Translations under genes and position numbers: made by a program
Shown here: positions 37,101 through 64,000 of the stretch, piece by piece
Layout of the letters: each line of letters begins with the position of its first letter
Numbering within the stretch: position 1 is the first letter of the stretch
Source: Beroe forskalii
Taxonomy: Eukaryota > Ctenophora > Nuda > Beroida > Beroidae
NCBI GenBank assembly: GCA_011033025.1
Contig: WFMF01000499.1
Coordinates: 1-64,000 of the forward strand
Direction: 5' to 3'
Length of the DNA stretch: 64,000 nucleotides
The notes under the pieces: model-generated
Database searches by the model: none
Told to the model about the DNA's origin: nothing
The model's input: the letters and a program-made list of their open reading frames with translations, nothing else

Positions 37101-40100
37101 AGTTTAATTTTTGCGAAAAAAAGGGCGTGGCCTCCCACGCCCCTCAGGGTGACCCAATAATTCGGACAAAATTCTCAAAATTTTTATTCATCATAAGCAA
37201 CTCAATGGCGAAAGAATTTTGAAAAATTCGAAAGTTTAATTTTGCGAAAAAGGGCGTGGCCCCCCACGCCCCTCAGGGTGGCCGAAAAAATTTCTCATTA
37301 TTTTTCTGATTTATTACTAAGTTTTTGCAACACGACTAAAACATAATTTCGTTGCCTACTCGAAAACGAATCGCCATAAATAAATAAATAAATAAATAAA
37401 TATATATATATTAACAACACGCATTATATATAGTAAGAAGCAATTTTTATATTATTGAGAAAAGACATGGCTGAAGTAATTTGAAATTATGATTTGATAG
37501 TTAGATGGGAAGTATTTATCCCAGCATTCACTGATACGGAAATATGGAATACGACGTTCTGTTAATTGAGTATTTTTGAACTAAACCCACTTTTGTCCAT
37601 CTCAGCGCATACAAAGGACCAATGGTACAGCAGCATAGAGTTCGCGCAGCCCGATGCACTCATCATGGTCCAAGTTCGGGAAATAGGTAAAATATTTACT
37701 GTTGATAGACTAATAACTTGCAGCTTTGCAAGTATCATTGTGGATTGATATATCTGAGTAAAATCACTTCTTTGACACACTAGATTCATGTTAGATAAAT
37801 CTAAACAAGTAAGCAGAGTGGTGGAACCAAAGTTAGGAACTTTATTAACCTAGACACAAACAAAATGAACTGCTGTGGCTCAAAGCCTCAAAGAGCTTGG
37901 CCATTCTATGTCACTTGAAGTGTAACATACTGGAGATCTCTACTTTTACCTCACGCGGGCCGCTAAATTTCAACATTTCGTTACAAATTGGTTGCGTTAA
38001 TATAAAGATTAGCTGTGGCCTGTGTGTAGTATTATAGCTTGAACAGTAACTTGAGTATGTTTATAACTCAACAGTCAACAATATCATATCAAATTAAGAA
38101 GTATAAATTCAGGAAAATTACTTTGTTTATTGGAGTAACAAACTGTTCTATTTACTGTAAAAGTGAACGATTAACTGTAAAAGTGAACGTTTATGATTTC
38201 AATTGTGGATAAAATGAACTATGAATTCCGCAGAAAAGAACAAAAACTAAAATGTAATAACATAATTCATTGCTGACTAGTTAATGAACTCCGAAATTAG
38301 TACAGCAAAGCAAGGCCCGTTTTTATCATGACACTGGTCACCTGATCATTACGTCATGATAATTAGTACTTACACCTATCGCGGTTTTTGTTGTCGTAAT
38401 TGAAATCTTCCGGGATAAAAACAGTTTTACGTACTGAGACGTCCGGGGTTTTTTGTTCCTAATTTATTCGAGACGTTCCGAACCATATGCTTTATCGTAC
38501 TCGTTACTTTTTTTCGTAGGCGACACATAAATTTGTAAATTTGTAAATTTATGGGTTCGAAGTTGTGAGACATTTAGTAGTGATAAAATATTATGTCGGG
38601 TTGTTATTCAAAACGATAAGATTAGAATATTACTATATTAGAAAATTTGGTACATTCTTGGAGGTTTTCGTTTTCAAATCATTGAAAGTCCTCGCGAATT
38701 TAACGAGACTCGTACCAAAAAGTATTGTGATCCGATAAAACAACATAGCATCTAATTAGGTAATTATAGGTTTTCTTGCTTCCAATTTACATAATTTATG
38801 GGCATATGTCAGACTTCTGTGGTATCTGATTGGTAACAATTCACTAAAACCACGACTCAAAACAATTGAAAGTTTTCAAAATTTAATTGTGACAACGTAA
38901 GAGAGCTCCGTACGCACAAAACTGAAAGAGGAGACCGGAAAACTGCTCTCTTTCCTCTGCTTATCTCTCTCTTTCCGCCAACTCTCACTTCTTCCTCTCC
39001 CTACTCACTTCACGTGGTGGAATTATCAGTCAATTGGGCCGAGTAGTAGCTACAAGAGGAGGAGGAGGAGAAGGAGGAGGAGGACAACAGCTCACATGTA
39101 ACATCTCTAATAATATAACGTAACTTTACCTGTTTCCGAAGTGTGTACAACATGTTGATATATGGCTAATTTCCCCGCGACATGTTGCCTTTTTGTCGTG
39201 TCTTACAAAAACTATAGGGCGGGCAATTATCGAAATATTAAGGGAAATATGCATTATGTATGCGTGACAAGAGAGGTCACAGAGTACGGTGCATTACTTT
39301 GTCATATATGAGCATATGGGTGTGAATTCAGTGAAATGTGTATGTCTCTTCAGGTCTCTTTGCCTGTTTCAGAGGGTCTGGTGGCGTGTTTTGATGTATG
39401 AACTTCTAAGTCCTATCCTGCTTAGGCTTTATTCCTCCTGTATGTCTAATGGCTTTTTAATGATAGTTTATATGATACAACAATAGAACAATACCTAGAA
39501 CAGAAGAGGAATTAATAAAAATTGTAGGAAGTGGTGATATTATCGGTGCCAAGTTTCAGCACTTCAATTATTGTTCATGGCCTGAATAGTTGGCAGTTCG
39601 TATTGTTCGTTTAGAACGGAACTCTATTAAAATATTAAAATATTAACCAATACCTATAACCTGGTCTGACTGTTAACATAACCTTATAACCAACTTTATT
39701 GACATTCGTGGTGCATTCCTTGACCATGTTGTGTGTACTGACAAGAAACGGTTAGAATGATTGGAATACTTTATAACCTTGAAACCAGTTCACATACGAT
39801 TAATTTATGAAAATCTGAGTTAAACAAACGACATAAAATCTATTCTTGACAACTGCGACTGGCCGAATGGTAACAATGGTCACCTGTCCCGAAAAGAAGA
39901 AGTAAAGAAGTAAGGGAACTGATTACTACTGAACTCAATGAGTTACCTAATGCTTTCATGACACGGGTTTTATGGTAACAGTCCTACGTCTTCCCCATCG
40001 CATTATTATTATTTTACGTCGCGCAAACAACCGGTAGAAGTTTGAGATTTACGTCGTAATGTAAAGCTTAAAACATTGAACTGATGACGAAAAAAAAAAC

Positions 40101-49100: not shown

Positions 49101-52100
49101 AGCTCGTGGTTGAAACTGGTCAAAGCAGGCAAAGGGTCCATGTTCATCAAACTATTATAATACCTACGTTACGGTTAGTTCCAGTTTTGTCTAGTATTGT
49201 TTCATTGATACGGAACCGTAGGTCGGTGTAACCCCATTGTTACTCTGAATTACAATAGTTGGTAGTTATACAATGGTTAAAGTAGTCTCTGGTGCAGTCT
49301 TTATTATTGCATATGTGAAATGAGGAATGAGGAATCAGGAGCCAGTCTTTGCACAGTGTGTATGGAGCCATACCTTGCAGGTCTACTCTTGCAGGTATGT
49401 CATTCGCATGCTTATATATTCATTTCAATAAACTAGGTACGTTATTAGGTTATTTCAACTATATTCTCAACAATCCAACCAACAACGTTACGATGGCAGA
49501 AATAAACTTGTATGGCACACTCGACTGAACGAAGATATAACGATGATTTAACAAATAAGAGGAACATAAAGTAAAAGTATGTGCAATGTTTGATGGCACG
49601 TCGACATGGTAACATGGGTCATCCGGTCATGGATGAAGTAATCACTATTCACCAATCACCATTGCAAACTGCTACAGAAAATTTAATTTTGTAGGTACAG
49701 TACAAGTCCGAGGAATTGGGAAAGCACGTATAGCTCGAAACCAATCTCGAAACATCAAACACAAACACTCTATGAAATTAGGAAGATCTTTGGCGGCCTG
49801 ATGTATCATTTCTTGGTATCTAATTATTAATGCGTTTGATATTATATCCCTTGTGTAAACACAACAATACAAGCAGTATTAAAGTGTTGGTCAATGTCCA
49901 TTAGCAAATGCTCCTTGATCATCAATATCATTGTACGATGTATCAGGTTTCACTTACCTAATACCTATGAACATTAACGAATTAATGTTAAAGTATTATT
50001 AAAATACTTTTTGCGAATTATTTTCATAATTCATGTGCGCATCCCACAAAACTCATTAATTTCTTTCCCGGCACTTTTTGTACAGAAATACATCATTATT
50101 TTTACTGGCCAGAATTTTCACTACGCAAATCAATTTACAATGTACATAGGACAAAATGAACCGGGATCGGGGATCTGGAAACTTCATCACTAAGGAATAC
50201 TGACTCTTGGCTCTTGAATGAAACTCCGTGCATACTAATTGTAAATTCATGAATCGAGCAAATTTCTAAATGGGTGAACTATCATAGTAGAGCTATCAAA
50301 TTCATAGTAGAGCTATCAAATTCATAGTAGAGCTATCAAATTCCTCTTCCCTCCCAGAAATCAGGTCTGACTTCGTGTTGCCGGAGGTTCTGATCCAGCT
50401 CCAGGGGGACCTCCTGGATCGCTCCACCCCCAACCTGGCCAAGATAAAGTTCCAAGACTTCACGGTCTCATGGACAAAGTAAGTTCTTTGCTCTTGATGG
50501 AGTTTATCAGTACCCAAATCAATAGTTAGAGTGGGTTGCTCGTCAATTAACTCTAGTAAATTCTATTTCAATTCATTAAACAATAATTAGCTGATTAATA
50601 AAAAGTTAAAACAATACCGATTTATGATATTAACTGCTGAGTGCTGCTGTGCTGAGATAAAATTTAGAAAGGCGCACAATGAACGCAACGGAAACAATTC
50701 GGGTGGCCATCCACAAGGAAGTTGATTTACATTTACCTTGTAATTTTCTTGATATCACCGAATCCTCGTGATCCACTTATCCGTTGGTGTTAATTTGATT
50801 TTAAAGTATCTTTAAATGGGTCTCCAATATCTGCTTCATTCGATTATAAAATGACTGCGGAATATTTTCTCACGATTGTGAATAATCAATGATCGTAGAT
50901 AATAGATTACTATAGTGCAGGTTATATTTTTCCATTGATTGCTCCTCAGCTGCTGACCATATTCGCAAAAAGTGGACCATGGTGTCACTTGTCCGCCAAT
51001 TAACGAAACCTTATTAACTTATTAGCCGTTTCTAGTCAAAATACGTGATTTTCCCTCGTAGAAGACGAAAAATGGGTAAATTCGGAATTCTGACTCCACT
51101 AATGTCTCTATTAGGTCATACCTACTTTGAATACAAATATTCTGGATGCCTGAGAAATGAACTGATACACGGATCACTGTTTTTTTTCTATTTTCCAGGA
51201 TAACCAGCGAAAACTGGCAAATATCATTGCTGCATATTCACAAATAAATATACATATTCACAAATAAATAGACATAGCAGTTTGCAATAATTTTAGAACA
51301 CAAGGTATTGCTTTGGCAATAGACTGCGATAGTACAATTAGATTATTGAGTTGAATTAAGTAAATCTTTTGTTTTCTGAAAACTCAAACAAACTATATTT
51401 GTCCAAATTATTGCTTTATTGGACATACTGGCATCATCAATTATTGAGAAAGAAAGATTCATTTATTGCCGCAACATAATGTGAAACAATCAAACTAATA
51501 TGTGAAATAATGCAAACAAGGCTAAGGAAACCAAAGCCATTAAACCATACTGACACTAGTGCCTCATGGGACTTTAATAACTTGGTAGGTGTGATGACAT
51601 CATTTTCACATATCAAAGAAGAGAGTTGTTGATTACAGTATATGTAACTGCTGGATATTTCGCGTGTGATGGTTGGAAACAGTTGGGCTCCGTTAAACGC
51701 ATTGTTCCAAATTCTTAATACCCAAATGGGTTTAGGAAGATTGTGCACAGTGATAGACCACCTGTAGAACACATAAGGAAACCACGGTTTTGTTCTAAAT
51801 TCGGGATGTTTCAAGTGTAGAACATTTACAACTTTACAATGAAAATCAAATTCAATGATTGAGACCAGTCACTTAGGTGTCAATCAGTATAATTCAAAAA
51901 TTGTGAAATTTTCAATATTTAACTCTTAAAAAAACTTTTTGCATTTAAATGATGAAATATTACTACTACTTAAAAGAAGGACGGACTCAGAAAGGGCCCA
52001 ATTCCTGATTTAATACTTTTGATTTACTCTTATTCACTGAGCCCTGTATAAACATTAACGATTCTGTCCAATATATTCCTGAAGACAGCCTCGTCGATGT

Positions 52101-55100
52101 TCTCATTAACAGCCACAACTCTAAAGTAATCTCTAAAATACTCTAAAAACACTCCCTCCCTTCTCAATCTCGTCACTATCTCATGTACCTTCACTTCTTT
52201 ATCGGATACCAACTTGAAGCAAGTATGAGTCAACGAATCCTCGAGAACTCCTTCAAACCTCTTGTCAGCTGCTATGATTCCCTTGAAAGTGACATTCCTG
52301 TCGTATATGAGCGTTGCCTGAGCATCCAAGTCATCGAGCTGGTCACAAAACCACAGCTTGAACCCGTCAGCCTTCCGCCCGCAGGTGAAGGACCTGTTAG
52401 CGATGTCGTACTGACTATCCTCATGGAACAGGTAGGGTGCCGTGACTTGAGACACGTCGCTCAGTAACCTTCCTTCTCGGACGAGCAGCAGACTGCATTG
52501 TAGGTTGAGGTTCAGACACTTGTGACAGTCGATGGTCACTGAATCGGCAAGTGCGAAGGAATGCGTCAAGTGCCGGTATTTGGAGCTGAACAGGGCAATT
52601 CCGCTGACACACGCGTCAATGTGATGCCAGATGTTGTGCTTCTTGAGAATATCCGAGTACTTCTCGACGGACTCGGTGATACCTTCGCAGGTAGTCCCAA
52701 AGGTCGAGTTTACCATGAACACGTTGTTACGGAGCAGGATATCCTCAAATTCTTGCGGAGTAGTCGTCTCAAAGTCTATCTTGATAACGTTACCAGTTCC
52801 CACGCCCATCATTATTGCTCCTTTATCTATCGAGTAGTGAGAGTTAACCGATGTTACAACCTGTATGGGATGGGACAATCCAGTCCGTTTAGAATCAGGA
52901 TATTTCTTATACCTGGCACAGATCATCCCAACCAGGGTGCAGTAACTCCCGCCCGGTAGAAACAGTCCATTGGCACCCTCACCGTACCCGACGTAGCCCA
53001 TCACCTTGGCGATTATTTGCTCCTCTGCGAAGGTGAAAAGGGGACTACTGCTGAAGGTATGACAGTTCTGGTTGTGGTATGCAACGATCATCTCCGCCAA
53101 GAATGACATTTCCGATCCACCCCCGTATAACTTCGCCATCCAGTTCTTATCCTTTGTTTTGATGGTGTATCGACACACTTTATCCAGCAATGCTTCAAAC
53201 TGGTCTTCCTTGGTGGAGGCTTTGTCAAACACAACCCGTTCTTTCAGTTCCTCAAAGGTACAATACTCAGTGTATGTATCAAGCAGGGCGTTAAGGACTT
53301 GCCCCACTTTTTTTCGCAGCGAGGTATCGGACATGGTCTCAAATAGATTGTACAGGTTAGGCTTTGCGGTTTACGGGTCACAGTTCAAGTTTCTAAAAAA
53401 GCTAAAAAGGAATAATTCAGTGCAATTATTTGAAAGACATTTTGAGCAAGATTGAAGTAAAAATAGATTAACCGAAAATTAACTAGTCATGAAGCCTAAA
53501 AATCAAGACTGCTGAAATTTTGAAAGCACTGGGAAAAGAAAGTTTTAAACTACTAACTTGGAGAAACTTTGAAAGCCATGGGGAAACTTTAAAAGCCATG
53601 GGGAAACGTTGAAAGCCATGGGGAAACTTTGAAAGCCATGGGAAAGCTTAGAAAGCCATGGGGAAACTTTGAAAGCCATGCGAGCTTTGAAAGCCATGGG
53701 ATTCGGAGAGTATTTTATAAAATTAGTTATTAAAGTTTCTTTCCATTGATGTATGGACTATGCTAATGTTAACGGCCACTTAAGCATACCTCTGCAATCT
53801 GCATATATACTGAAATTTCTGATTTCACATACAACAAAAATTAATGAGAGTTGCATGACATCAAATTTCAAAATTTCCTCTCAGCAGCATGCTAAAAGCT
53901 CCCAGTAAATTTGAATCTATTTCTAACAAGTGGAGCAGGGTCTGGGGGCGGCAGCAACCAGGAGCAAGACGTTTTCTATAAATAAATTTCGATAAGATTT
54001 AAACTCTTTCTGCCCTGAAGGTTAGTTATGTGCCTAACCTGGCCAACACGGTGGAGATTTTCGTCTGTATGGAATCGAAATTGTGACAGGTGTTAAAATA
54101 TTGCAAAGATGAAGATTCAAAGTAAAAATTCGAAATGCAAAATGTTTACAGAAATGTGAATGCAGTCGAGTAGGGCATAGTGGGGGTTTTTGTGGCAGCA
54201 GCCCCAGAAGCCAAAAGTAGCCCGGGAAACTAAAGTGGGGATATACTGAAAATATACACAATTATCAGGATTCACTAACAAATCTTATATCTCCCTTGTT
54301 TCTGCCCGTCATGCAGGTCCCCTTTGCAGTTGACTCCCCAATTGTGCTGTGTACGAGGTGCTCCTCTCGTATTCTTTCACCTTTGTACTTCTGTAGTTCT
54401 CCCCTGACATGTTTCGTCTTGAAGTTGTCCCTTAAGTCCCTTAGTTCAGCTGAATCTTCTCCCTTGTCACACTGCTAACTCGTTGCATCTTGAGGATCCT
54501 CTTAGTCTCTAGCCAAGGCGTTATTCCCGACAAACAATAAACATCAGCAACACAATCTAAACCGAGAGGACAGCACAAACTTGATGTGTGTAAACACAGT
54601 CAATATTACGGAAGCTCACGCCTCTTGGAAAGCACTGCATTCTGATTGGTCCTCAGTTCCAGACACCTTGTTTCCCATTCTCTGATTGGTCGCTAAAACA
54701 ACATGTCTCACTGTGATTGGTCCCCTCCTTGAAACGCTAACCTATTGTTATAATATTCCATAACTTCTAACAATGCTCAAACTTCTAACAATGCTCAAAC
54801 TAACTAACTAGGAAACAATAAACTTATTTAACTCAATTGTTATCACGTATTCACATGAGTTTCTAAGAGGTCTTGAATAGTCAACAAAGCATAGAAAAAC
54901 TGGTGTACAAATAGTAATTATAAGCTTCACTATAATATTCTAATATTTACAGTAAACGAGGAACTACAAAATATTCTAAATTCAAAAGTCCAATTATGGC
55001 ATCACCAAAGCTTGTCTCTTGCGTTAGTGACTGGTAACACCAGACACTTACCTGTTGACCCAGCTTGTACTTGCATGGCACACTTGTGACACTTAATCTA

Positions 55101-58100
55101 CTAGCTTCTCCTGGTCCTACCCGACCTATAACTGGCGTGTCCTGATCCTACCTGACCTACTGGCATCTGGAATGATCTTCCCTGACCTAGTGGCTTCTTG
55201 ATCCTACCTGACCTATTAGCGTCTCCAGATCCAACCTGACCTACTGCTGGCGTGTCCTGATCCTACTTGACTTACTGGCGTCTCCTGATCCTACATGAGA
55301 CTTACTTGTAACTTGCTTCTTCTGATCCTATCTGACTTTCTGGTGTCTCCTATCTGACAATATATTATAATCCTGAAGGACTGAATGTTCTAACTCAAAG
55401 ATTACAAAAAGAAGTCAAACCTCATGATCATAAAGGTCTAAGTTTTGGGATAAAACTATACTCTCAACCAGTTTGCTCGATCTGGCAAGCTCTGAAACAC
55501 AGCTTGAATCCTTGACACCAGCATCTAACTCACTGACTCACTGAAATTCAGACGGTCCATTTCGTCTCATTTCAGCCCTGACTTATTTCAGGACGGCAGA
55601 CTGCAAGGACGTGTACATAACACTCCACAAGCTAAGTGTTATCGACATGTTACAGCCACCTGACTCGTCTGCCAAGTATCTCTTCAAGAGTAGACACAGG
55701 GCAAGATATCGAACAAACTCCTCTTTTGATGATTTAACTTTGAATACCAAGAGAATCCGATCAGGTGAGTGTCAGTTTGAAACTCGAAAATGCGCTCGGT
55801 AGTTTATCACTTTATCGTGTTTTGATAAGTGGGCAATCTTATTCGGTCACAGTTTGTGAGTTTAGTTTGCGTACGCCGCGCTGCCTTTTTCTCGTCGAAA
55901 TATGAGGCACATTTCATGAAAACCATTGCGTCACGTACGTTTTATTTTGCTTTGTGCTGATTTCGCGCAATTTTGATATCGACAAAGCTATATTTACTTC
56001 TGTGCACAATATTCATTTTCATTACATCCAATGATATGTTACACGAAACGTGTATAAAATCATAAGATAATTCATAATTCATGAATCTCTTCATACTACA
56101 TCTCAAAACATTCCACGGAAATGGCACCTACTCAGTTTTTAAAACCAGAAAGGTCTATATATGCATATTAAATTAAAACTTCGATAAATTCACATCCCCA
56201 GATAGCCCATCAGGTATCAAATTAAAAGACACAGCAGACAGTGGTAATTCTGGAATACGAGAGGCTTTACCCCTAGAACCCCTGACTGACACAAGCACGC
56301 TCTTAAGTATAGCAAATGATAACTTTGTTCTCATCATGCTCATGACATCTTTGTACTCCTCATTGGTCTTTTCGGCAACTCGTTCAGCCAATCTCCTGTG
56401 AAATATTCTCGCTTGAGGTGCCATACCTCCTGATGTACTGTACACTAGAGGTGTGAAGCTGCACTTCTCCACCTGGATGACCCGCTGTTCGTAGTCCTTC
56501 TTCTTGATGTTCTCATGCTGTGCATACACTGATCCTATGTCCCGGTCCTTGTATGAATCAGCATTGGGATGAAACACCCTGACATCAAACATGGTCTTCT
56601 GGAAGGGTCCCCACAGACCCCGAGCTGAGATGTCGAGACGGGCTTTGTCTTCTGTATTTCCCGGTAGCTGCTGATTGGAGTCAATTGGAATCAGCTCTGG
56701 TTCGGTCTTCACGTCATGACAAACCTCCCTTAGAAACGCAGCATTTGTGTCTCGAACTTTATTGTGCCTGAAGATCAAGTAGCCACCATTTTTACATGTT
56801 AGGGTGTGGTCTACAGAGTTCTTCTTTCCACAAACACAAAATGCTGGAATGTTAGGGATTTGCCAGCCGTACCTCAGCCTGAGTGCATCCCTGAACTCCT
56901 CCTTGTTCAGCACCCAACCAAGGGAACCAATAGGGAGAACAGTGAGCCACGCCCCAGCACCTTTCTCTTGGGCCAAAGTGACAGACTTCTTCAATCTGTC
57001 GGAGGAGCCAGTTTTGACATCATTGAGTTTCCTGAGTAGCCTGACTTCCTTGTCCTTAACTACATCTCTTGTGAGCTCTTCCACAGCCTCGGACTGATAA
57101 CCATCAAGATTTAGCTGCTGGTCAATGATGAGCCTTTTCAGGTTTTCTGTAATCTTTTCAGATGCCTGAAATTCAAAGTCTGCATTTTCAACAGGATTAG
57201 AGATCCCAAGCCCACCTAGTCGAACAGGTAGCGAGAACAGGTCCCTTTCTGCTTGGGAAATCTGTCTTCCTATTACAGCAGGTAGGAAGCTGTTTTTGAT
57301 TGCACTTTCTAGCGGACTGAAAAGCTCTGAAATCGCAGGGATAGTTCTCTGAGCAAATGTCCACCTATGGCAAAGTGCCTTAGTGAAGGCTGTGTATGCT
57401 GACTGTGGGTCATCCTTCCCTATCTCTGATAACTGTTCCACATCTTTCACCCACTTAGCCACCTTTTCTGTCACATATTGCTTGCGAAAATCCTCTGTAC
57501 CTATCACAGCTCCAAGATGACGTTCTCCATCACATGTTATCTTGATACCACATCCCTTGAAGATCTGCCTTGCTGTCTGCACGTGCTCTTTCTTCACAAT
57601 GAGAACTGTTTTTGAAGGCTTAGGATGATATCCATACTGTGGCCCCTTCATACATAAGAAATTCCACCATTTCCTGATTTCATCGAGTTTGCCAGTGGCT
57701 GTGGAGTCATCAGCATACCATATTTGTTGGCAGGCCGAGGAATCCACAGCTGTCGACAGATCAGTGGTTTAGTCCCCAATGCATTGAAAACCATTGCAGC
57801 GACATCCCCCTGTGTACAACCTTCATAAGATCCCATGTACTCCGTTTTCTGACCATCACTGACGACAAGCATTGCTGGTTTCTGATAAGTGTTTACAATG
57901 AACTGATGAAAAGGCGGACATGTTTCTCTGATGTTATGCATAGCCAGCTGCCTGTTGATGGTGTTAAATGCATTCTCTGCATCAACTAATAGTACAGCTT
58001 GGGTGGATGACAGCTCCCATTGCTCTCTGGTAGCATGGATAGAGGCCTCTATTCCTGCCTTCAGACCAGCACAGGTCTGCAGGGGTCCTGCAGCCTGCTG

Positions 58101-61100
58101 GATATCTGACTTAAGAACACCGATAACCAGTTTGCCGACAATTCGCCTCAATACCTCCCCCACACCAACAGGCCTCACCCCAATTCCTCCATGTTTATCA
58201 TTCCCCTTATCCAGGGGTACCAAACGACAAGCAAGAAATTCATCGAGTGTGGCCGGGCTGATGGGCTTAGTACTGATGAACTTAGCAAGCTCAGCGATGG
58301 CTTCACACAACTTCTCTGATGCCTTGCCATATGATCTGCAACACAAGATGTGTTTCCAGGCATCAGCATCAATCAGCGTGGGTCCACCTGAACCGTGCAA
58401 AGTTTTGGCAATCTTGTACACCAACTGACCATCAATTTGTTCAAAAATAACTGGCTGGGGTTCAGGGGCTGTTATATCCATCTTCAACTCTGAGGGCGCT
58501 GGTTTGCCATCCGGATGCTTACAGGCCAAAACTGTTCTTACATTTCGAGTCAGCTTGTGCACCCCTTTCACGTCACTGTTATTGTCTATCAGTTTAACAG
58601 CCTTACCCACTTGTCCCAGCAACATCAGTCTGCTGAATGCTATATGACAACTGACCTCCTTCTTCTTCATGGTTTGAGCTAGACGACTCTGAATTTCCCT
58701 TGCTTCTTCCATGAGACCCTGTACAATTCATAAGTACAGATAAAATTATATTCCGCTTTCAGGGCTTCATTTTTCAATGTATAATTAAATTCCTACTATA
58801 CCTACTATTTTATGTTACCTCAACTACAGATAGCCAGCATTTGCCGATGTCACCCCATAAGAACGAGAGTGATATGAAGGCACTGGTTAGCATACGGATT
58901 GTAGACAACATGATGGATACAGAGGTTCGAACATTTCTTATGAACAAACACATTTTTCGGATTACTCCGGATTTTATCCCGCATCATTACTTTAGTGCAA
59001 TTAATAGCTTCTGTGCAATTTAATTGCATTGTTATAAGCCTCGAAGATTTTGCCATTAAGATAGTGATTCAACCTCATAGAGTTTGACCGTAATCCTATC
59101 AACAGGTGATGATTACACACTGATTCCGTTCCAGGGCGAAATATCAGGGAAGTGCGTGGTAGTTGATCTGAACTGTGTGGACATGACAGTAAACCTCCAA
59201 ACGTGGGTGATGCTGCTGGACTTCATGACCTTTTCCTCGACGAGCTCTGAGAAGGTTGTCCGAGGCTCGCAAGCAGTCTCGGACTTCCTCCACGATATGA
59301 GTGATAGTAGCAAGACAACCGAGCAGCTGCGGGTTAGTTTTTCTGGGTGTATTGAAATTGTTTGTCGTGGATTCGGATAATATCGGGCATCATTTTGGGT
59401 AAATGGTCAGAAACAATAAGACAGACGATGGTTTTATGATGGACTAATATAGTTTTTTTTGGCGTTAAATTGTCCATTGTACGGGAGCGGGAGTTAGTTA
59501 ACATTGTATTCCAGGCACCGTCTGACGAAGATAAGCCAGAGAAGACGACAATATGTGTTCAGATGAAGGAATGGAACATAACACTCAATAAAAAGGAGTA
59601 TCAGCTGGCACTATGCCAAATCGAGGGTGTATCTTTGACGCTTTCTGTTGACCCGAATGTGGTAAGTATGATAAATTTTCGGATATTTCATTAAGTAGAA
59701 CCTTTGATTGATGTGTAACTATATTTTCAATTTGTGTATCCCAATACACACATGGTTTTTTTAAATTAATCAAAGCGACTATAAAGTTGGAAATAGGGAT
59801 TATTTAACAGAGAGAGAATATTATACGGAATAAATTATATGATTTCATCCCACTGTTTGCACCATCAAGCACTCTTTGCATCATCAATCGAGATCGATAA
59901 TAAAATCATCAGTGAAAACACCATCTTCGCTACAAATGACCTTATTAGCAGCCCAGAGGGTAATCGAGTATTCCCCTCCTGAGGTCTCTGTAAATTCCGC
60001 CATGTGCTGAACGTTCACGCACTCATGTCCGGCTGGTATCTCAGCTTTCACCTTCTCAGTCCATCTCCACTCTTCCATCTTCTCCTCCCACCCCGATACG
60101 GTCTTACCTCTCGTTAAAGCCTCATCCATGTAATCCATGATACTATCGGAGTTCTCTCTGTTCACGTTGTCCACCAGTAGCGCTTCCTGGAGTGAGCTTC
60201 TGAGTGCATCTCCGTATGGTCCCAAGTTAGGAATGGGATCAGAGGTAGAAGCACCCCGCATCAGACCATGCTCTGCAACAAAGTCCCACTCCATCCCTTG
60301 CTGATTCCATCTGTCGTCCCTGGTACCACGACAACGGGTAGTGTAGATCCTCACGGTGAACCTCGGGACCAACTTCCAGAGTTGAGCATCGCTGAACGCA
60401 TCTCCGCCCCAGATCTTCACTTCACTCTGTTTCTTTGCTGGATTCACCACTCTGTCCTTTTGATCATAGTTGCAGCTGTAAATATAGAAATAGCCGTCTT
60501 TTTCTCTCGAAGGAGTCATTTTCCAAAGCTGCCTATCTTTATTTCTACTGTTCCACGCACCTAGATTGTGGTCCTTGTTCGACATCGTCCAGCCTGTCCA
60601 CTTCTCATTAACCCAATAGTAGCACCCTGGACGGCTAGGCTCAGCTTCCAAGATCCAGACCTGACCACGGTAATAGGCTCCGTTATAGCCGATCATACCA
60701 CCCCAATCGTCATCTTTAAGTGTTAGTCTGGAATTCTTGTGGTATTTGTTGTAGAAGAGGAATTGGTTGTTGGCAATGAAAGTGTAACTGAGTGTCTCTC
60801 CAAGTAGGGCAAGAGTCGTTAAAATGATAAGCATTTCTTGATGTGTTTCAGTTTTTGGTGTGGAAGTAATACAGCAATCTGTCTCAAAATGCAAAGAGAA
60901 AAATAGCCGTGAATCAGAAAACAATTATTGCTTCATAATAATGGAGCAATCTTAATTATTATGCACTGAGTTTTGCTATAGCAGCTGCGTCACTGTGTGA
61001 GTTGTAAAGTTGCTAAATTTCACAGCTTTAATACAATCAGTTTATCGGAATTTCAAGTTATATTACCAAGAATTTCGATGTCTCGTTGTTTCGTTGTAAG

Positions 61101-64000
61101 GTGGTCAAAAGAGTTAATTTTTCACCTGGTTCCTCAAACATCAAAATTTAAGCGACTTATCCGCCTAAGATCGGAAGGCTTATTGGGTTTTGGAGCCTAC
61201 TGTTGTCGAAACTGATCGGGGGCTTGCCCATTTTGAACGCAGTAGCATGCTCGCCTCTCACCACAAGGCTGAAAACTGCCACAGGAGTCTCACCGGCCCT
61301 CGATCCTTAGTGTAACGTATCCTTTGTGTACGTCTCCACAAGAAATCCGAGTAGTATGAGTTTGAAGTTTGTGGAAACAGGTGATAACTCTTTATGACCC
61401 CCAAACAATGATGCATCATGAGTCTTGCACGAATTCCTGGTAATGCTAGAAATGTATTTTTAACTTCCGACATAGTGATTGAGTACACGTAGTATCGGGG
61501 AACTGGCGACCTACGTGTTTTTCTGTCAGTCAATAACCAATGTTAGGTGACTGGTGAGCAATTGTAACATGACTTCAAGCGTCCTTGTGGGTCTTGGGAC
61601 ATGAAGTAACAATGAATGTGGGTCGAACATGACATCACATGACCATCGAATCATGTGACCCCAGAAGCCAGCCATTGACTGCTTACAAAATACTTGTGGT
61701 AACTAAGAGTCCACAAGACAAGTGATATTTTTGTTGACCTCGCTTACCCTATGCCCATACATTCAATTTGATTGGCGCGGATTATTTCATTAAAAAGATT
61801 CATCATTGATGACTATGAACTGACACTTTAAAAGACCGTTTTAAGAATATTGGAATTCCTCAGATTCAGTGTCAGGGGCGAATGGATGGTCTTTCTGTCG
61901 AAGATTTAAGTCCAAGCGCAGGGCTTTTCAAGAGCAAATTCTCTGTATTAGGGAACGAAGTATTGCAGGTAAATGCTTTGTAATCTGACTGATACCTTGT
62001 TGTAATTTATGAGTATGGTCTTGAAACTCGTTCTATAAGTTATTAGCTGAAACAAGTTTCACATCTAAAAGCCTATCATCTTCAGTTTGATTTCAAGAAA
62101 AACACAAAAGAAGACAGAGACCTTGAGCGGCAATACGACTCCTCTCTTGAACTTCACATGTCAGCCATCAGATACGTGCACACCAAACGGTTCCTGGCTG
62201 AGACTCTGGCTTTCCTCGATCATTTCATCGTTTTAGATAATTCACTGCAGGTTATCTACCGTTTTACAAAATAAACTTATCTTACAATCCAAACGGACCC
62301 CGTAATTACCTTTTTCAAGGTTTTTGACATACGAGAGGTTGAGTTAACAAGTTCACTCTGATCCAACATTTCGATATAACCTTATCACTAACCTGACCCT
62401 AGGTGAACCGTAACGCAGTTATCACCGGAACATACAGAGAAGCAACCCCGAAACACGGACATCGCATTCTCCTGGACGTGCAGATGAAGTGCCCCGTTGT
62501 CGTGGTACCAGTCACCCCATCCAGTGCTCACGTGCTGGTAGGGTACCCTGGCAACATAGAGGTCTCCAACTCATTCAGGTACCCTGGCAATATAGAGGTC
62601 TCCAACTCATTCAGGTACCCTGGCAACATAGAGGTCTCCAACTCATTCAGGTACCCTGGCAACATAGAGGTCTCCAACTCATTTAGGTACATGGGGTGAC
62701 ATAGTGGTCTCCAACTCATTCAGGTACATGTGGTAACATAGAGGTCCCCAACTCCTTCATATCAGGTATTACATGAGGCAACTCATTCAGGTATATGTGG
62801 CTTTAGAGCTGCATTCAGGGACATTGGTGATGGAACAACATTCAGATACAATATTGAACGCTTGATAAATCAGCAAACCACTGATCATAGACATTACCCG
62901 TTCAACAAATAACAAGATGATAGGACATCACCCGAATTTGGAATGGGATTTGGAATATTTCCGATTAGTAAGGACATCTCTTCAGATTTGCCACTCAGGA
63001 GGAAACTCTTGAAAGCACCCAGGAGTCTGGGCGGGAACGGAGTAGTCGGCCGTGTCTTCTGGACTGTCTAGATGTCAAACTGAGGTAAAAACTTCCTGTG
63101 ATTTAAGGAAAGAACAACAGACTAGAGTTAAATATATCTGTAGTTCATTTCGATCAAAAGTTTATCATAATTTTCACCTACCCCTCGATCGATTTTCAGA
63201 GATATGGACGTCGTATCGGCAGTCTGGGATTCTAACGAGATAAAGCAAGCTTCCTCCCTGTTGTATGAGAAGTGTCTGCTTACCCTCCTGATTAGAAGGA
63301 ACCTGGATAGTTCCTTCAACCACAGCTCCCCCAATATCTGTGTCAGAGGAGAGCTCAGCAAAACGGGAATCAGGTAACCTCATAGCTCTACAAAGCATTG
63401 TTTTGTGATGTTTCACCATTCATCAATTATATTGCGCTTTTTATGGGGATTTTGAAGTGGAATATCATTGAAAGGCTTACTTTTATTGATTCACCGGGCT
63501 TCATCCAAAGCTCTCAGCAAGTTTACCGTATGTGATTCTCCGTCGCAGGATTACGGAGACGGACCTGGCTAAAGTGAAGGGATTCCTGGGCTACAACATG
63601 TCCGAGGACATTGGGGAGTTTGTGATTTCCCGCGAACACATCACTGACACAGTAAATGTTGAAAAGTATGTGAGAAAGCACTGCACAGTTTCATAGTTTG
63701 GCGAATGTACTAATTTGGTTTAATCAATTCTCTCACGTATTAAACACTCTCGTATTTTGGTTCTCGAAACAATGCATTGACATCATACGTCAAGATTCAT
63801 TCTCACACAACTCAGATCATGAATAAATCTGTGTTATAAAAACTTAAATAATCAGCGCAATAAAGAATAACCGTTTAGCATGATAATATTCTATAACAGT
63901 TATCATCCCCGTAGGTTAGATTTGGATGGTGTACGGTGCTGGTTAGACATCGACATAGCGGTACAACTGGATAACGTTAGCATTGAGTTGCTGCACCGCA
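14256..64000 (+). CDS. VPS13D: Bridge-like lipid transfer protein VPS13D (5' half, 40 exons, continues past the window)
   Basis: VPS13 proteins form long grooved rods that move lipids between membranes at contact sites; VPS13D acts at ER, mitochondria and peroxisome contacts. The window carries the N-terminal chorein domain and about half the repeating beta-groove: 40 exons, about 2,070 codons, with GT-AG introns whose phases agree throughout. VPS13D rather than A/B/C is indicated by stretches such as SVELENLKLREDAL, KFQDF after QLQGDL, NCVDMTVNLQTWV, LVGHLGNVTIKN, MSAIRYVHTKRF and PCLLDCLDVKL. Details per exon group are in separate entries. UBA, VAB and C-terminal domains lie beyond the window. 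Introns reach 12.3 kb and contain five antisense coding units. Confidence 0.95.
16098..16197. repeat. Foldback element in VPS13D intron 6
   Basis: AAAAGCTGAAATTGCGTAAG (from 16099) pairs with CTTACGCGCGCTTTCAGCTT on the other side (to about 16187), giving an imperfect hairpin of about 27 bp per arm around a 35-base loop. The right arm runs into further AAAGCTT palindromes to about 16219. It looks like a small MITE or its remnant. A related GACTAAAAGCTTAAAAGCTT text occurs near 28343. Confidence 0.6.
18021..18672 (+). repeat. 14-bp direct repeat at both ends of VPS13D intron 11
   Basis: ATATCATCGCCAGG occurs at 18021-18034, ending on the donor (CAG|GT), and again at 18659-18672, ending on the acceptor (CAG|G). 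The repeat therefore lies across both splice junctions of the 638-bp intron (18034-18671). Just before the second copy are three near copies of GTATGAATT (about 18597-18659). Confidence 0.85.
19109..20329. other. Start of the 12.3-kb VPS13D intron 13, 3' flank of the nested GPCR
   Basis: AT-rich, with no recognised coding exon on either strand. It includes the presumed 3' UTR of the nested minus-strand GPCR. Confidence 0.4.
20170..20175 (-). terminator. Candidate polyadenylation signal of the nested GPCR
   Basis: AATAAA on the minus strand, about 155 bases after the GPCR stop codon at 20330. It is the canonical hexamer at a plausible distance; the AT-rich context makes a chance match possible. 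Confidence 0.35.
20330..25394 (-). CDS. Class A (rhodopsin-like) G protein-coupled receptor nested in VPS13D intron 13
   Basis: Five minus-strand exons join in phase to 373 residues: 25252-25394 (start, TM1), 24861-24969 (TM2), 23773-23908 (TM3), 21189-21373 (TM4 and loop 2), 20330-20878 (TM5-TM7 and tail). TM1 ends SITGNAIVLYG (conserved Gly-Asn), TM2 has AAADILVAV (conserved Asp). TM3 ends in LSCYRLALI, so the DRY motif is CYR. Loop 2 has YDPYTQSC, like the YDPRIYSC of melatonin receptors. TM7 has NPLIY. N-glycosylation is possible at NES near the N-terminus. Melatonin- or moody/Tre1-type relatives are the best guess; the ligand is unknown. A MITE lies in its intron between exons 3 and 4. 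Confidence 0.88.
22756..23488. mobile_element. Mariner-like foldback MITE
   Basis: Two long inverted arms (about 22756-23048 and 23160-23488) surround a roughly 110-base centre. The outer ends are CCGGGTGCGTCATAATAAAC and its complement, flanked by TA on both sides (22754-22755, 23489-23490), which fits the TA target of Tc1/mariner elements. The arms are over 85 percent alike by eye; the left arm lacks about 27 bases present on the right (around 23436-23466). No transposase is encoded; open frames here are mirror images of each other. It lies in an intron of the nested GPCR. Confidence 0.85.
26985..27135 (+). repeat. 23-bp minisatellite
   Basis: About six or seven copies of a 23-bp unit with core CTCAACCAAACTCCACTGAC, slightly diverged, one with an insertion. 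It is unrelated to the CTCAACCA motif of the 0.3-2.5 kb element beyond the shared eight bases. Confidence 0.85.
27287..27343. other. Near-perfect 57-nt hairpin
   Basis: AACAGACTGGTTCTGGTAAC... pairs with ...GTTACCAGGACCAGTCTGTT; the stem is about 25 bp with one T/C difference (a G-U pair in one transcript orientation) and a short AT loop around 27314. It may be a small-RNA precursor or a TIR remnant; nothing decides between them. Confidence 0.55.
31376..35426 (+). CDS. VPS13D: VPS13D exons 14-18
   Basis: Exons: 31376-31589, 33377-33521, 33802-33924, 35056-35179, 35318-35426. Exon 14 encodes a Ser/Thr/Pro-rich loop with STPPSTPDDS, at the place where vertebrate VPS13D has TPPNTPPP. Exon 15 (TLYETFSLQLSDLKVHAG) and exon 16 (FSLDMKLERRLVFSLD) are groove strands; exon 17 ends VNVTQSIS, matching VMNLTQSI in vertebrates. 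Exon 14 follows a 12.3-kb intron that hosts a GPCR gene. All junction phases agree (0, 1, 2, 2, 0, 1). Confidence 0.88.
31590..33376. other. VPS13D intron 14
   Basis: No gene was recognised. It holds a two-copy repeat of GGACGTATCAGACGTAA near 32257-32285 and a short TCTAGAATC repeat near 33190. Confidence 0.35.
35731..36134 (+). pseudogene. Unrecognised coding-like region in VPS13D intron 18
   Basis: A frame from 35731 to 35994 encodes an acidic then basic segment (MTEEDLKKEKEEIAP..., GRKALKRKA...). An overlapping frame from 35943 to 36134 continues with DRPVIGVDGKLIL and ends in a stop. Codon use is more even and GC content higher than in the surrounding intron, and the two frames could be one gene with a frameshift near 35940. 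I do not recognise the protein. It cannot be a regular VPS13D exon because exons 18 and 19 already join in phase 1 and no phase-1 donor follows. It could be a processed pseudogene or an orphan. Confidence 0.3.
36397..42761 (+). CDS. VPS13D: VPS13D exons 19-24
   Basis: Exons: 36397-36582, 37606-37686, 40807-41021, 41253-41324, 41906-42099, 42304-42761. Exon 19 reads TKQPFDSDLSLLISTL, aligned to VKRPYDAEVSLTVHGL of vertebrates. Exons 20-22 are short groove pieces with weaker similarity but fit in phase and have good splice sites. Exon 24 begins with a roughly 110-residue Ser/Thr/Pro-rich insert containing a 10-residue repeat (KSADAHITPT type), then SLQYYHSPSFTSAVISSV, matching SLHYNHSAKFLKELTLSM. 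The insert is probably disordered and lineage specific. Confidence 0.85.
36690..37290 (+). repeat. 133-bp satellite array with a GC-rich hairpin per unit
   Basis: About four and a half tandem units in VPS13D intron 19. The anchor GGGCGTGG starts at 36856, 36990, 37123 and 37252 (spacing 134, 133, 129); a more diverged first copy begins near 36690. Each unit has a poly-A run, then GGGCGTGGCCCCCCACGCCC, which folds on itself, then AATTCGGACAAAATTCTC and a long AT segment. Confidence 0.9.
37375..37412 (+). repeat. TAAA and TA microsatellite
   Basis: TAAA repeated about six times, followed by a short TA run, just after the satellite array. Confidence 0.85.
37687..40806. other. VPS13D intron 20
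   Basis: A 3.1-kb intron without a recognised gene. A pyrimidine-rich tract (about 38945-39000) and a GGA run (39056-39085) stand out. I see no exon on either strand. Confidence 0.4.
42531..42620 (+). repeat. VPS13D: In-frame 30-bp coding repeat in VPS13D exon 24
   Basis: Three 10-residue units (KSSDACTTPT, KSADAHITPT, SSVDAH...) in the Ser/Thr/Pro-rich insert. The repeat length keeps the frame, so copy number can vary without breaking the protein. Confidence 0.75.
42762..44420. other. VPS13D intron 24
   Basis: No gene. CTTATTGA occurs three times in a row near 43217-43245. TTTCTGTCCGTGCG near 43014 recurs in the loop of the foldback at 46032-46190. Confidence 0.4.
44421..50478 (+). CDS. 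VPS13D: VPS13D exons 25-29
   Basis: Exons: 44421-44581, 44809-44958, 45253-45347, 46306-46415, 50358-50478. Exon 25 holds FKVLIESPVVQLPRGYG and LVGHLGNVTIKN, a signature block of VPS13D. Exon 26 is ILVDVDNIHLYSALQ. Exon 27 encodes TLSKKLYEQIIETMQ, aligned to VLAKHVYEQVLQTLD. Exon 29 encodes LPEVLIQLQGDL and KIKFQDFTVSWTK. The exon 29 acceptor is preceded by three tandem 20-bp repeats. The 3.9-kb intron before exon 29 carries a small antisense gene. Confidence 0.92.
46032..46190. repeat. Foldback element in VPS13D intron 27
   Basis: TAACGC-ATTATATGTGTGTGC-GATCGCTCGAT and TTGATAAAGACGCGC on the left find their complements on the right, ending GCGTTA at 46190. Arms are about 60 bases and imperfect, the loop about 40 bases. 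Several TCGTGGTGTAAAGT repeats follow (about 46205-46280), directly before the exon 28 acceptor at 46305. Probably a MITE. Confidence 0.7.
46416..47285. other. VPS13D intron 28, first part
   Basis: No gene recognised. An inverted pair CCAATCAGC (about 46613) and GCTGATTGG (about 46646) resembles two opposed CCAAT boxes. Confidence 0.3.
47286..47684 (-). CDS. Small single-TM protein with MRDQG repeats, nested in VPS13D
   Basis: 132 residues from ATG 47684, which directly follows a good acceptor (ATATTACAG) at 47686, so a non-coding first exon probably lies upstream. The N-terminal part is acidic. Residues 36-55 are four pentapeptide repeats (MREQG, MRDQG, MQDQG, MRDHD). A hydrophobic segment at about 101-121 (IGGIYLASVGLSMVMIGCLL) suggests one membrane span near the C-terminus. 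I do not recognise the family. It is antisense to VPS13D in its intron 28. It could be a lineage-specific gene; a chance frame is less likely given the TM segment and splice context. Confidence 0.45.
   Translation of the reverse strand: MERIIEEEVLPYSGQQEDLPVRTPQLSDYEFCDVGMREQGMRDQGMQDQGMRDHDKCDKRLPESASRPHNTLSINVDKSNHIVSDKELIDKVNRTRYYGKIGGIYLASVGLSMVMIGCLLIDLTVSELITTR
47520..47585 (-). repeat. 15-bp coding repeat in the small TM gene
   Basis: About four copies of a 15-bp unit (CATTCCTTGATCACG type on the plus strand) encode the MRDQG pentapeptides in frame. Confidence 0.75.
47685..50281. other. VPS13D intron 28, later part
   Basis: Unrecognised sequence. A 105-codon plus-strand frame (48914-49231) has no similarity that I know and lacks splice context. 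A 5' exon of the small antisense gene may lie here. Confidence 0.3.
50282..50341 (+). repeat. Three 20-bp tandem repeats before the exon 29 acceptor
   Basis: TTCATAGTAGAGCTATCAAA three times, nearly identical, ending 16 bases before the acceptor at 50357. It may contribute to branch-point sequence. Confidence 0.9.
50479..52029. other. VPS13D intron 29, 3' flank of the nested decarboxylase
   Basis: No gene is supported. A 125-codon minus-strand frame (51437-51814) lies downstream of the decarboxylase and is unlike anything I know. Minus-strand AATAAA hexamers near 51411 and 51459 could end its transcript. Confidence 0.35.
52030..53334 (-). CDS. PLP-dependent decarboxylase, GAD/CSAD family, nested in VPS13D
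   Basis: 434 residues in one coding exon. Group II decarboxylases convert acidic or aromatic amino acids to amines (GABA, hypotaurine, beta-alanine). Seen here: the phosphate-binding FLPGGS block (about 125-130), SHYS at 165-168 (His stacks on PLP), Asp240 in HHIDAC (binds the pyridine N), and HK at 271-272 (Lys272, Schiff base) followed by LQCS as in GAD (HKMMGVLLQCS). It is odd that the usual HVDAAWGG is HIDACVSG and SPGG is LPGG, so substrate preference may differ. It is shorter than GAD/CSAD (about 490-590), lacking N-terminal sequence. A strong acceptor (TTTTTTAG at about 53393, minus) suggests a 5' UTR intron, so this is not a plain retrocopy. Confidence 0.88.
   Translation of the reverse strand: MSDTSLRKKVGQVLNALLDTYTEYCTFEELKERVVFDKASTKEDQFEALLDKVCRYTIKTKDKNWMAKLYGGGSEMSFLAEMIVAYHNQNCHTFSSSPLFTFAEEQIIAKVMGYVGYGEGANGLFLPGGSYCTLVGMICARYKKYPDSKRTGLSHPIQVVTSVNSHYSIDKGAIMMGVGTGNVIKIDFETTTPQEFEDILLRNNVFMVNSTFGTTCEGITESVEKYSDILKKHNIWHHIDACVSGIALFSSKYRHLTHSFALADSVTIDCHKCLNLNLQCSLLLVREGRLLSDVSQVTAPYLFHEDSQYDIANRSFTCGRKADGFKLWFCDQLDDLDAQATLIYDRNVTFKGIIAADKRFEGVLEDSLTHTCFKLVSDKEVKVHEIVTRLRREGVFLEYFRDYFRVVAVNENIDEAVFRNILDRIVNVYTGLSE
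53561..53700 (+). repeat. 20-bp minisatellite
   Basis: Seven units of GGGAAACTTTGAAAGCCATG with few substitutions, the last one shortened. It lies in the presumed 5' UTR intron of the decarboxylase and in VPS13D intron 29. Confidence 0.92.
54643..54721 (-). promoter_or_regulatory. Cluster of three CCAAT boxes, possible decarboxylase promoter
   Basis: CTGATTGGTC or close variants at about 54642, 54682 and 54712, which are ACCAATCA on the minus strand, spaced about 40 and 31 bp. Regularly spaced CCAAT boxes are typical of NF-Y promoters. They are 1.3 kb upstream of the decarboxylase start codon, in the right orientation, and compatible with the inferred 5' UTR intron. Confidence 0.4.
55100..55360 (+). 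repeat. Degenerate minisatellite of about 30 bp
   Basis: Eight or nine diverged copies of a unit built on CTGATCCTACCTGACCTACT followed by GGCGTCTC. Units vary in length. It lies in VPS13D intron 29, about 230 bases before exon 30. Confidence 0.8.
55592..59661 (+). CDS. VPS13D: VPS13D exons 30-33
   Basis: Exons: 55592-55764, 58830-58924, 59135-59332, 59515-59661. Exon 30 encodes DVYITLHKLSVIDMLQP and SSAKYLFKSRH. Exon 32 has VVVDLNCVDMTVNLQTWVML, near-identical in pattern to VDFNCLDVLITLQTWVVI of vertebrate VPS13D. Its acceptor was set at 59134 (TTCCAG|GGC), because the earlier CAG at 59104 would lead into a stop in the required phase. Exon 33 has MKEWNITLNKKEYQLALCQI, a groove strand pair. 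A decarboxylase gene lies in the intron before exon 30 and a reverse transcriptase in the one after it. Confidence 0.92.
56173..58712 (-). pseudogene. Frameshifted reverse transcriptase with a C-terminal nuclease-like region
   Basis: Two overlapping minus-strand frames make one protein. The first (57648-58712) has GVRPVGVGEVLRRIVGK (fingers), LVDAENAFN at 242-250 (first catalytic Asp) and CTQGD. The second (56173-57747) starts before the YADD box at residues 11-14 and runs on for 510 residues. One frameshift near 57760 separates them; there are no other stops. The C-terminal part has C304-x-C306...H314-x3-C318, a zinc-knuckle-like group, then LDISARGLWG...FDVRVFHPNADSY, which may be a PD-(D/E)xK-type nuclease core. 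This RT type is common in marine invertebrate genomes; I cannot name its clade. The 5' end appears truncated near 58712. It lies in VPS13D intron 30. Confidence 0.8.
59884..60834 (-). CDS. Secreted ricin-B-type beta-trefoil protein with a second domain, nested in VPS13D
   Basis: 316 residues from ATG 60834, giving a signal peptide MLIILTTLALLGETLSY. An upstream in-frame Met at 60924 would bury it, so the internal Met is preferred. Residues about 18-157 contain three Q-x-W motifs (58-60, 102-104, 151-153) spaced 44-49 residues apart, the mark of the three-fold ricin-B/beta-trefoil fold that usually binds carbohydrate. Residues 158-316 form another domain with many Trp and Glu and WTEKVKAEIPAGHE. 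It faintly recalls beta-rich pore-forming or natterin-type modules, but this is only an impression. There is no intron. Expected to be extracellular. It lies antisense in VPS13D intron 33. Confidence 0.65.
   Translation of the reverse strand: MLIILTTLALLGETLSYTFIANNQFLFYNKYHKNSRLTLKDDDWGGMIGYNGAYYRGQVWILEAEPSRPGCYYWVNEKWTGWTMSNKDHNLGAWNSRNKDRQLWKMTPSREKDGYFYIYSCNYDQKDRVVNPAKKQSEVKIWGGDAFSDAQLWKLVPRFTVRIYTTRCRGTRDDRWNQQGMEWDFVAEHGLMRGASTSDPIPNLGPYGDALRSSLQEALLVDNVNRENSDSIMDYMDEALTRGKTVSGWEEKMEEWRWTEKVKAEIPAGHECVNVQHMAEFTETSGGEYSITLWAANKVICSEDGVFTDDFIIDLD
60835..61863. other. VPS13D intron 33, remaining part
   Basis: Upstream flank of the lectin-like gene up to exon 34. I see no additional gene. 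Short tandem text with ATGTGACC/CATGACATC occurs near 61630. Confidence 0.35.
61864..64000 (+). CDS. VPS13D: VPS13D exons 34-40 (exon 40 cut by window end)
   Basis: Exons: 61864-61968, 62086-62250, 62403-62578 (minimal form; may extend to 62614, 62650 or 62686), 62986-63084, 63200-63373, 63549-63665, 63915-64000 and on. Exon 35 has LELHMSAIRYVHTKRF, the best conserved VPS13D block here. Exon 36 has GHRILLDVQMKCPVVVVPV and ends in the repeated GYPGNIEVSNSFR strand. Exon 37 has PCLLDCLDVKL, exon 38 LLIRRNLDSSFNHSSPNI, and exon 40 the start of a strand ending QLDNVSIELLHR. Exon 36 has alternative donors created by a 36-bp minisatellite. Confidence 0.92.
62543..62818 (+). repeat. VPS13D: 36-bp minisatellite across the exon 36 / intron 36 boundary of VPS13D
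   Basis: Four near-identical 36-bp units (62543-62578, 62579-62614, 62615-62650, 62651-62686) start GTACCCTGGCAACATAGAGG and end CATTCAG (ATTTAG in the fourth). More diverged units end at 62723, 62765, 62790 and about 62818. In frame, a unit encodes YPGNIEVSNSFR. Each boundary reads AG|GTA, so donors exist after 62578, 62614, 62650, 62686, 62723, 62765 and 62790. The first four share phase 2 and fit the exon 37 acceptor. Beyond 62686 a stop occurs at 62697-62699. Confidence 0.92.

Follow-up and report, generated by a model that had tools for sequence, protein, structure and literature searches.

The human gene IFI6 contains a tandem repeat with a unit of 12 bp. It is a published precedent for an array of donor sites, and the original study is cited in PMC2572611 and PMC4526556, the latter describing three mRNA species that arise through the use of two downstream units. 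In the intron gain model (PMC4974935, PMC3443670), a tandem genomic duplication carries AG/GT with it. A survey of human donor pairs (PMC9225289) deals with competing, nearly equal 5′ splice sites; by its account the outcome depends on the length of the flanking intron, the border lying near 250 nt, and in short introns the downstream donor is favoured.

Here we describe an array in the genome of Beroe forskalii, within a window of 64,000 nt (contig WFMF01000499.1, positions 1 to 64,000; all features lie on the forward strand). COI is identical over 507 aa, which points to this species or one very closely related. The array resembles IFI6, as far as that system is described in these sources, in the tandem repeat across an exon end, the donor in each unit and the unit of whole codons. 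However, its unit has 36 bp, gene and phylum are different, and the outer units are decayed and include a stop. With the described cases of intron gain (PMC4974935, PMC3443670) it shares a duplication carrying AG/GT. As in the human pairs of PMC9225289, more than one donor of similar strength shares a single acceptor, but here there are seven donors, the organism is a comb jelly, and the intron has 407 nt instead of 195 through the array itself.

The array and its splice sites

The array has a 36-bp period and occupies positions 62543–62818, starting with the final 36 nt of an exon and extending into the intron. The gene encodes VPS13D, a lipid-transfer protein, as the original prediction held: 39 of the 46 protein matches carry that name as listed, one is named VPS13A and six have no such name. 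The exon, which ends within the array (62403–62578 up to donor 1, phase 2), was defined by its open frame, its VPS13D homology and close relatives ending at the same residue. TRF placed the array at 62542–62759 (period 36, 6.0 copies, 91% match) with a score of 327, against a top score of 56 among 20 dinucleotide shuffles of the window, and the array has a single locus in the assembly.

Unit 1 (62543–62578), recognized by TRF, alignment of relatives and frame analysis, is the coding exon end (G)YPGNIEVSNSF(R). Units 2–4 (62579–62686, 36 bp each, in frame) start at 62579, 62615 and 62651, which are also the positions of donors 1–3; units 2 and 4 are each one base away from unit 1. The decayed units (62687–62818) start at 62687 (37 bp), 62724 (42 bp), 62766 (25 bp) and 62791 (28 bp), the positions of donors 4–7. 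The repeated segment runs from GTACCC within the exon to the last CAG of the exon. TRF and the unit boundaries confirm the expected four clean and several decayed units over the exon end, and all seven candidate donors, AG/GTA at unit ends, are present.

The acceptor at 62986 reads CTCTTCAG/ATTTGCC and opens the next exon (62986–63084, FATQEETLES...). With it donors 1–4 stay in frame and add 0, 12, 24 or 36 residues, in agreement with the prediction, and donors 5–7 run into TGA at 62697–62699 in the frame of the exon, the stop foreseen for farther donors. The claim that donors 1–4 keep phase stands for this acceptor only, and falls with the competing acceptor CACTCAG/G, whose first following base is 62999 and which leads to a stop with all seven donors.

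From donor 1 the intron has 407 nt (62579–62985). Ten introns of the neighbourhood, this one included, range from 115 to 407 nt, and without the units behind donors 1–7 it would have 195 nt, similar to its neighbours. Scoring against U1, for which the original prediction had asked, gave −8.4 to −8.7 kcal/mol for six array donors and −6.3 for one, with a median of −7.5 over 40 donors in the model of the gene, donor 1 included. By this measure the seven donors differ little in strength, the last having a slight advantage.

Donor 1 in the protein family and in close relatives

Alignment to VPS13D relatives indicates that only donor 1 yields the family-standard protein. Its junction with the acceptor at 62986, NSF-R-FATQEETLES, is gapless against 12 VPS13D proteins taken from the 46 found. 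Extra residues would sit directly after a conserved strand and ahead of a segment whose length varies greatly: between two fixed anchor columns it has 25 aa here and 21–95 aa in the 12 relatives. The proposed addition to a groove strand is therefore unproven.

In close relatives, two fragments with 90% and 85% identity each contain a single unit, and the VPS13D-like sequence of both stops at the donor-1 position. Past the single unit one fragment ends at once, and the other continues into unrelated residues. A third match, not significant (E 9), likewise departs from the shared sequence after SNSFR. The end of relative fragment P0167 could be a contig end.

The gapless donor-1 junction and the one-unit fragments stopping there suggest that the array is probably a later tandem duplication across an old VPS13D 5′ splice site, with donor 1 working and the others possibly minor. 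Judged by sequence, donor 1 is most likely the main donor in life; the use of donors 2–7 is possible.

The base changes that set units 2 and 4 apart are both synonymous (chance 0.05–0.09), a pattern that coding use of the units would produce as well. These changes count against the donor-1 reading, as do the possible contig end in P0167, the near-equal strength of the seven donors, with the last slightly stronger, and the human preference for downstream donors in short introns as given in PMC9225289.

Alternative explanations

It is conceivable, but unlikely, that splicing draws on several donors side by side, as has been reported for IFI6, giving transcripts with one to four units. Repeat number would then set the isoform mix or, through donors 5–7 and nonsense-mediated decay, the expression level. 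The equal strength of the donors fits this, as do the unit length of 12 codons, the four open units with synonymous changes only, the insertion point close to the variable-length loop and the IFI6 precedent as described in the cited sources; one unit in the relatives, a stop from three of seven donors and the loss of frame in the gene's other two arrays speak against it.

These further arrays over donors lie at 76.0 and 85.5 kb. Both begin at an exon end, array 2 consists of 12 copies of 46 bp, and the first donors give family-like junctions, in favour of a working donor 1 in the present array. GT donors stay open in 2 of 10 cases in array 2 and in 2 of 9 in array 3, and the mostly stop-leading extra donors argue against adaptive length tuning. 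Together with the standing of donor 1 and the single unit in two relatives, this leaves the idea that copy number tunes protein length or expression unsupported. Random 10-kb samples gave two likely further donor arrays, but whether arrays prefer donors in general was tested without a significant result.

An assembly artefact, with a wrong unit number through collapse or expansion, or an array created by misjoin, is very improbable. The contig does carry the gene's 3′ end a second time (84.6–88.3% identical in the four longest pieces), and the stretch past contig position 94361 looks error-rich by eye, but the units have private changes, the flanking exons are open and homologous, the array has a single place and the same layout recurs at other loci. 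Hardly credible is that the repeat made the intron by turning coding sequence intronic through tandem duplication of an AGGT segment (the model of PMC4974935 and PMC3443670): the units do span GT to AG with AG/GT boundaries, but two close relatives that lack the array also depart from the coding sequence at this residue, so the intron predates the array.

Proposed evolution of the array in this Beroe

Under the reading that we prefer, later duplication with a working donor 1, the lineage leading to this Beroe would have undergone a short tandem duplication across an exon/intron junction that VPS13D already possessed. Since the copied segment runs from GTACCC to CAG, each copy would begin with a GTA resembling a donor, and the CAG/GTA junction would be multiplied. 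The first copy retains the entire exon end and 5′ splice site, so splicing at donor 1 would still give the normal protein, the added copies being intronic and the far ones decayed. Donors 5–7, if used, would lead to a premature stop, and donors 2–4, used at some rate, may add 12–36 residues before a loop already variable in length.

A repeat array across a VPS13D exon end

By sequence similarity, the gene carrying the 36-bp repeat is closest to VPS13D and not to VPS13A, VPS13B or VPS13C. A protein search with the model-exon query gave 46 matches (best E 2.7e-57); among the 46 listed, 39 are named VPS13D, one is named VPS13A and six are without such a name. The VPS13A match is far weaker (48 bits versus up to 213). 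Among proteins of solved structure, the exons at the array match VPS13C (E 9.8e-15) and VPS13A (E 1.5e-06). The Pfam model VPS13_M scored 37.3 bits for a 189-aa piece, below its cut-off of 50, which refers to the whole protein.

The array itself (array 1, 62543-62818) was reported by TRF at 62542-62759 with period 36, 6.0 copies and a score of 327, against a top score of 56 in 20 shuffles of the window. It consists of four near-identical units followed by four decayed ones of altered length. Since the array starts at 62543 and homology sets the end of the exon (62403..62578, plus strand) at 62578, the exon/intron boundary lies inside it. Each unit starts on GTACCC, a coding stretch in the exon that lies in the G-Y-P codons, and closes on the exon's final CAG, so that every copy creates a new CAG|GTA (TAG|GTA at donor 4). 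A KpnI site, GGTACC, marks the start of each of units 1-4. In all there are seven unit ends of the form AG|GTA, with a donor-like site in each (donors 1-7 at 62579, 62615, 62651, 62687, 62724, 62766 and 62791). TRF, homology and these unit ends together confirm the original observation of a minisatellite straddling a VPS13D exon end with seven candidate donors. Scored for pairing with U1, as had been proposed, six donors score between -8.4 and -8.7 kcal/mol, with donor 4 weaker at -6.3 kcal/mol; the median is -7.5 kcal/mol for 40 model VPS13D donors, a set that includes donor 1 and some sites derived from the exon chain alone. Unit ends such as CTCATTCAG|GTAC also match, by sequence, the AG|GT form of recursive (ratchet) splice sites.

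The reading frame depends on the acceptor. The acceptor at 62999, chosen by the exon chain, was dropped, as it leads to a stop with all seven donors. The acceptor at 62986 was taken instead, because it restores the frame and recovers the family residues FA...E.T. With it, the frames hold as predicted: donors 1-4 are open and add 0, 12, 24 or 36 residues, and donors 5-7 reach the TGA at 62697. Both changes among units 1-4 are synonymous (2/2; chance 0.05 for all single changes, 0.09 for transitions), and these numbers were too small to be kept as proof of coding use.

Where would the additional residues go? The extra units insert just past a conserved strand and ahead of a stretch of variable length: measured between the same two anchor columns, it has 25 aa here against 21-95 aa in 12 relatives. 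For RBG domains of this kind, PMC7613979 describes loops that vary in length. We infer that extra units would more likely enlarge a turn than lengthen the groove by a strand, so the proposed addition of residues to a groove strand is not established.

Age of the first exon end

Donor 1 gives the product LVGYPGNIEVSNSF-R-FATQEETLES, and in an alignment with 12 of the 46 relatives the junction has no gap; one of these relatives reads IVANLGKLKVKNKF-L-FAGTPGTFSL. A search with the four-unit exon, in which 1363 candidates were scored, gave three matches at E <=10. The fragment P0167, from a close relative (90% identical), stops exactly past one unit: YPGNIAVSNSFR. The fragment P0168, from another close relative (85% identical), has a single unit and then unrelated residues forming a 10-residue repeat. 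This structure, on a contig of 542 bp, suggests that a different tandem repeat may occupy the start of the same intron in that relative. The third match, P0169, is not significant (E 9); it too departs from the common sequence after SNSFR.

The single unit of the relatives and their common exit point indicate that the exon end at donor 1, with the intron behind it, is most likely older than array 1. P0167 taken singly could end there by chance, at the end of its contig. Birth of the intron by tandem duplication of AGGT at array 1 was rejected, since in two relatives with one unit the coding sequence is left at that very residue, as judged at the protein level. At the position where P0167 and P0168 have Ala, a Glu codon stands in units 1-4 and 6 and a Val codon in unit 5. 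This pattern would fit a local expansion at a later time.

Other arrays in VPS13D and elsewhere in the genome

The window covers the first 64 kb of its contig, which is 123 kb long and belongs to an assembly of 216 Mb in total, and VPS13D continues beyond the window. The mitochondrial COI of this assembly, read with code 4, matches that of the comb jelly Beroe forskalii with full identity over 507 aa. Array 2 (46 bp x 12, contig 76003-76551, L004:2003-2551) lies across another exon end of the gene and has a single place in the assembly. Its first unit encodes the RHKVSHALQS stretch common to relatives, and its donor 1 product, HALQSRSLRVSVGDW, is consistent with relatives such as HDLRIHQLQVRVNGW. 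Ten of its unit ends are GT and two are AT; only the first and third GT donors (2/10) give an open frame. Array 3 follows an exon end at about contig 85468 (L018:1467-1772) and has nine donors, with only the first two open. Its unit boundaries, CAACTCCAG|GTGAAC, resemble an acceptor plus a donor. A version with 36-bp units is found at about contig 94099 (L019:97-361), inside a second VPS13D 3' end. The 3' end of the gene is present twice, at contig 84.0-91.2 and 91.2-98.5 kb (L018, L019), with 84.6-88.3% identity over the four longest pieces; either a segmental duplication or two joined haplotypes would account for it. The contig past 94361 is error-rich in appearance.

As for the interpretation offered originally, the assignment to VPS13D, the donors and the frames stand, while tuning by copy number is not supported by the comparison: the donor-1 junction is family-like, two close relatives have one unit, and the extra donors of arrays 2 and 3 lead mostly to stops.

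Other features were recorded as well. A 446-aa open frame for a pyridoxal-dependent decarboxylase (52030-53370, minus strand; PF00282, E 2.1e-48) sits between VPS13D exons on the opposite strand. By eye, two long open frames at 56173-58727 (minus strand) resemble a reverse-transcriptase element, and a 996-aa open frame at 6485-9475 (minus strand) resembles a seven-helix receptor with LDL-receptor class A repeats. A dispersed family of 131-134-bp tandem repeats with a common core (GGGTGACCCAATAATTC... or close) occurs at 36698-37280, at contig 70712-71104 and at L012:2827-3224.

Donor-spanning arrays are likely present in other genes. Random sampling of 13 stretches of 10 kb brought up a UDP-glycosyltransferase exon (L009:6865-6933, minus strand; joined exons PF00201, E 3e-17) whose three donors are spaced by 34 bp. 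It also gave a locus next to a GalNAc-transferase-like exon (L005:5228-5338) with spacings of 39 and 36 bp between its three donors, the match covering only part of the array exon. A coiled-coil exon (L017:4560-4688), for which the Pfam search gave no match, is a weaker case. The arrays inspected singly (4 of the 38 in the random stretches) had been picked for a strong donor motif, so they provide no unbiased count.

Three tests did not show that minisatellites in general favour donors. The donor motif in real versus shuffled units of 55 arrays in 234 kb gave a combined p of 0.08. Of the 13 arrays in VPS13D, 3 contain a model donor (52 in all), where random placement expects 1.7 (P 0.24). The coding flanks (n=110) had no excess: with the cut-off at 95%, the donor side and the acceptor side each gave 5/110 where 5.5 were expected; a cut-off of 90% gave 11 and 12 against an expected 11, and one of 98% gave one on each side against 2.2. 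With no significant preference in these tests, chance placement in a minisatellite-rich genome (55 in 234 kb) is enough to explain the meetings of arrays and donors.

Donor choice and meaning of the arrays

A duplication spanning an exon end and its 5' splice site would be nearly harmless, because the first copy stays a complete exon end with its donor and the remainder can be spliced out. The array would then be free to grow and decay within the intron. Leakage to donors other than donor 1 may occur. The intron bearing array 1 is 407 nt long and the one bearing array 2 is 638 nt; other introns near array 1 have 115-249 nt (n=9), and those near array 2 have 126-172 nt (n=5), plus one of 543. 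For near-equal human donors, PMC9225289 describes a preference for the upstream site under exon definition and for the downstream site under intron definition, with a border at about 250 nt. Spliced from donor 1 the intron of array 1 is 407 nt long, and from donor 7 it is 195 nt; the array therefore straddles this border, and theory does not settle the choice of donor.

The human IFI6 minisatellite provides multiple splice donors. According to a citing paper (PMC4526556), two downstream repeat units act as donors, giving three mRNA species, with the 130-aa form predominating. The layout of array 1 is the same, an array across an exon/intron boundary with a donor per unit. Array 1 may thus be placed with the IFI6 kind by layout, its transcripts being candidates for the use of more than one donor. 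Among the papers listed, from a library with subscription papers mostly outside it, none describes a donor array for VPS13 genes or for comb jellies.

A far-reaching possibility, which we consider improbable, is that comb-jelly genes repeatedly make arrays of equal donors by exon-end duplication and that unit number varies between individuals, which would give widespread heritable variation of isoforms and dosage, VPS13D having three dials. Similar arrays recur in one genome, that of a non-bilaterian, where several exons carry natural series of near-identical donors facing a single acceptor. The old question of how a cell chooses among equal 5' splice sites could be answered from cDNA, with no construct needed. 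The arrays also show how a tandem repeat can be tolerated on an exon end with the gene intact, as the first copy retains the splice site along with the coding sequence.
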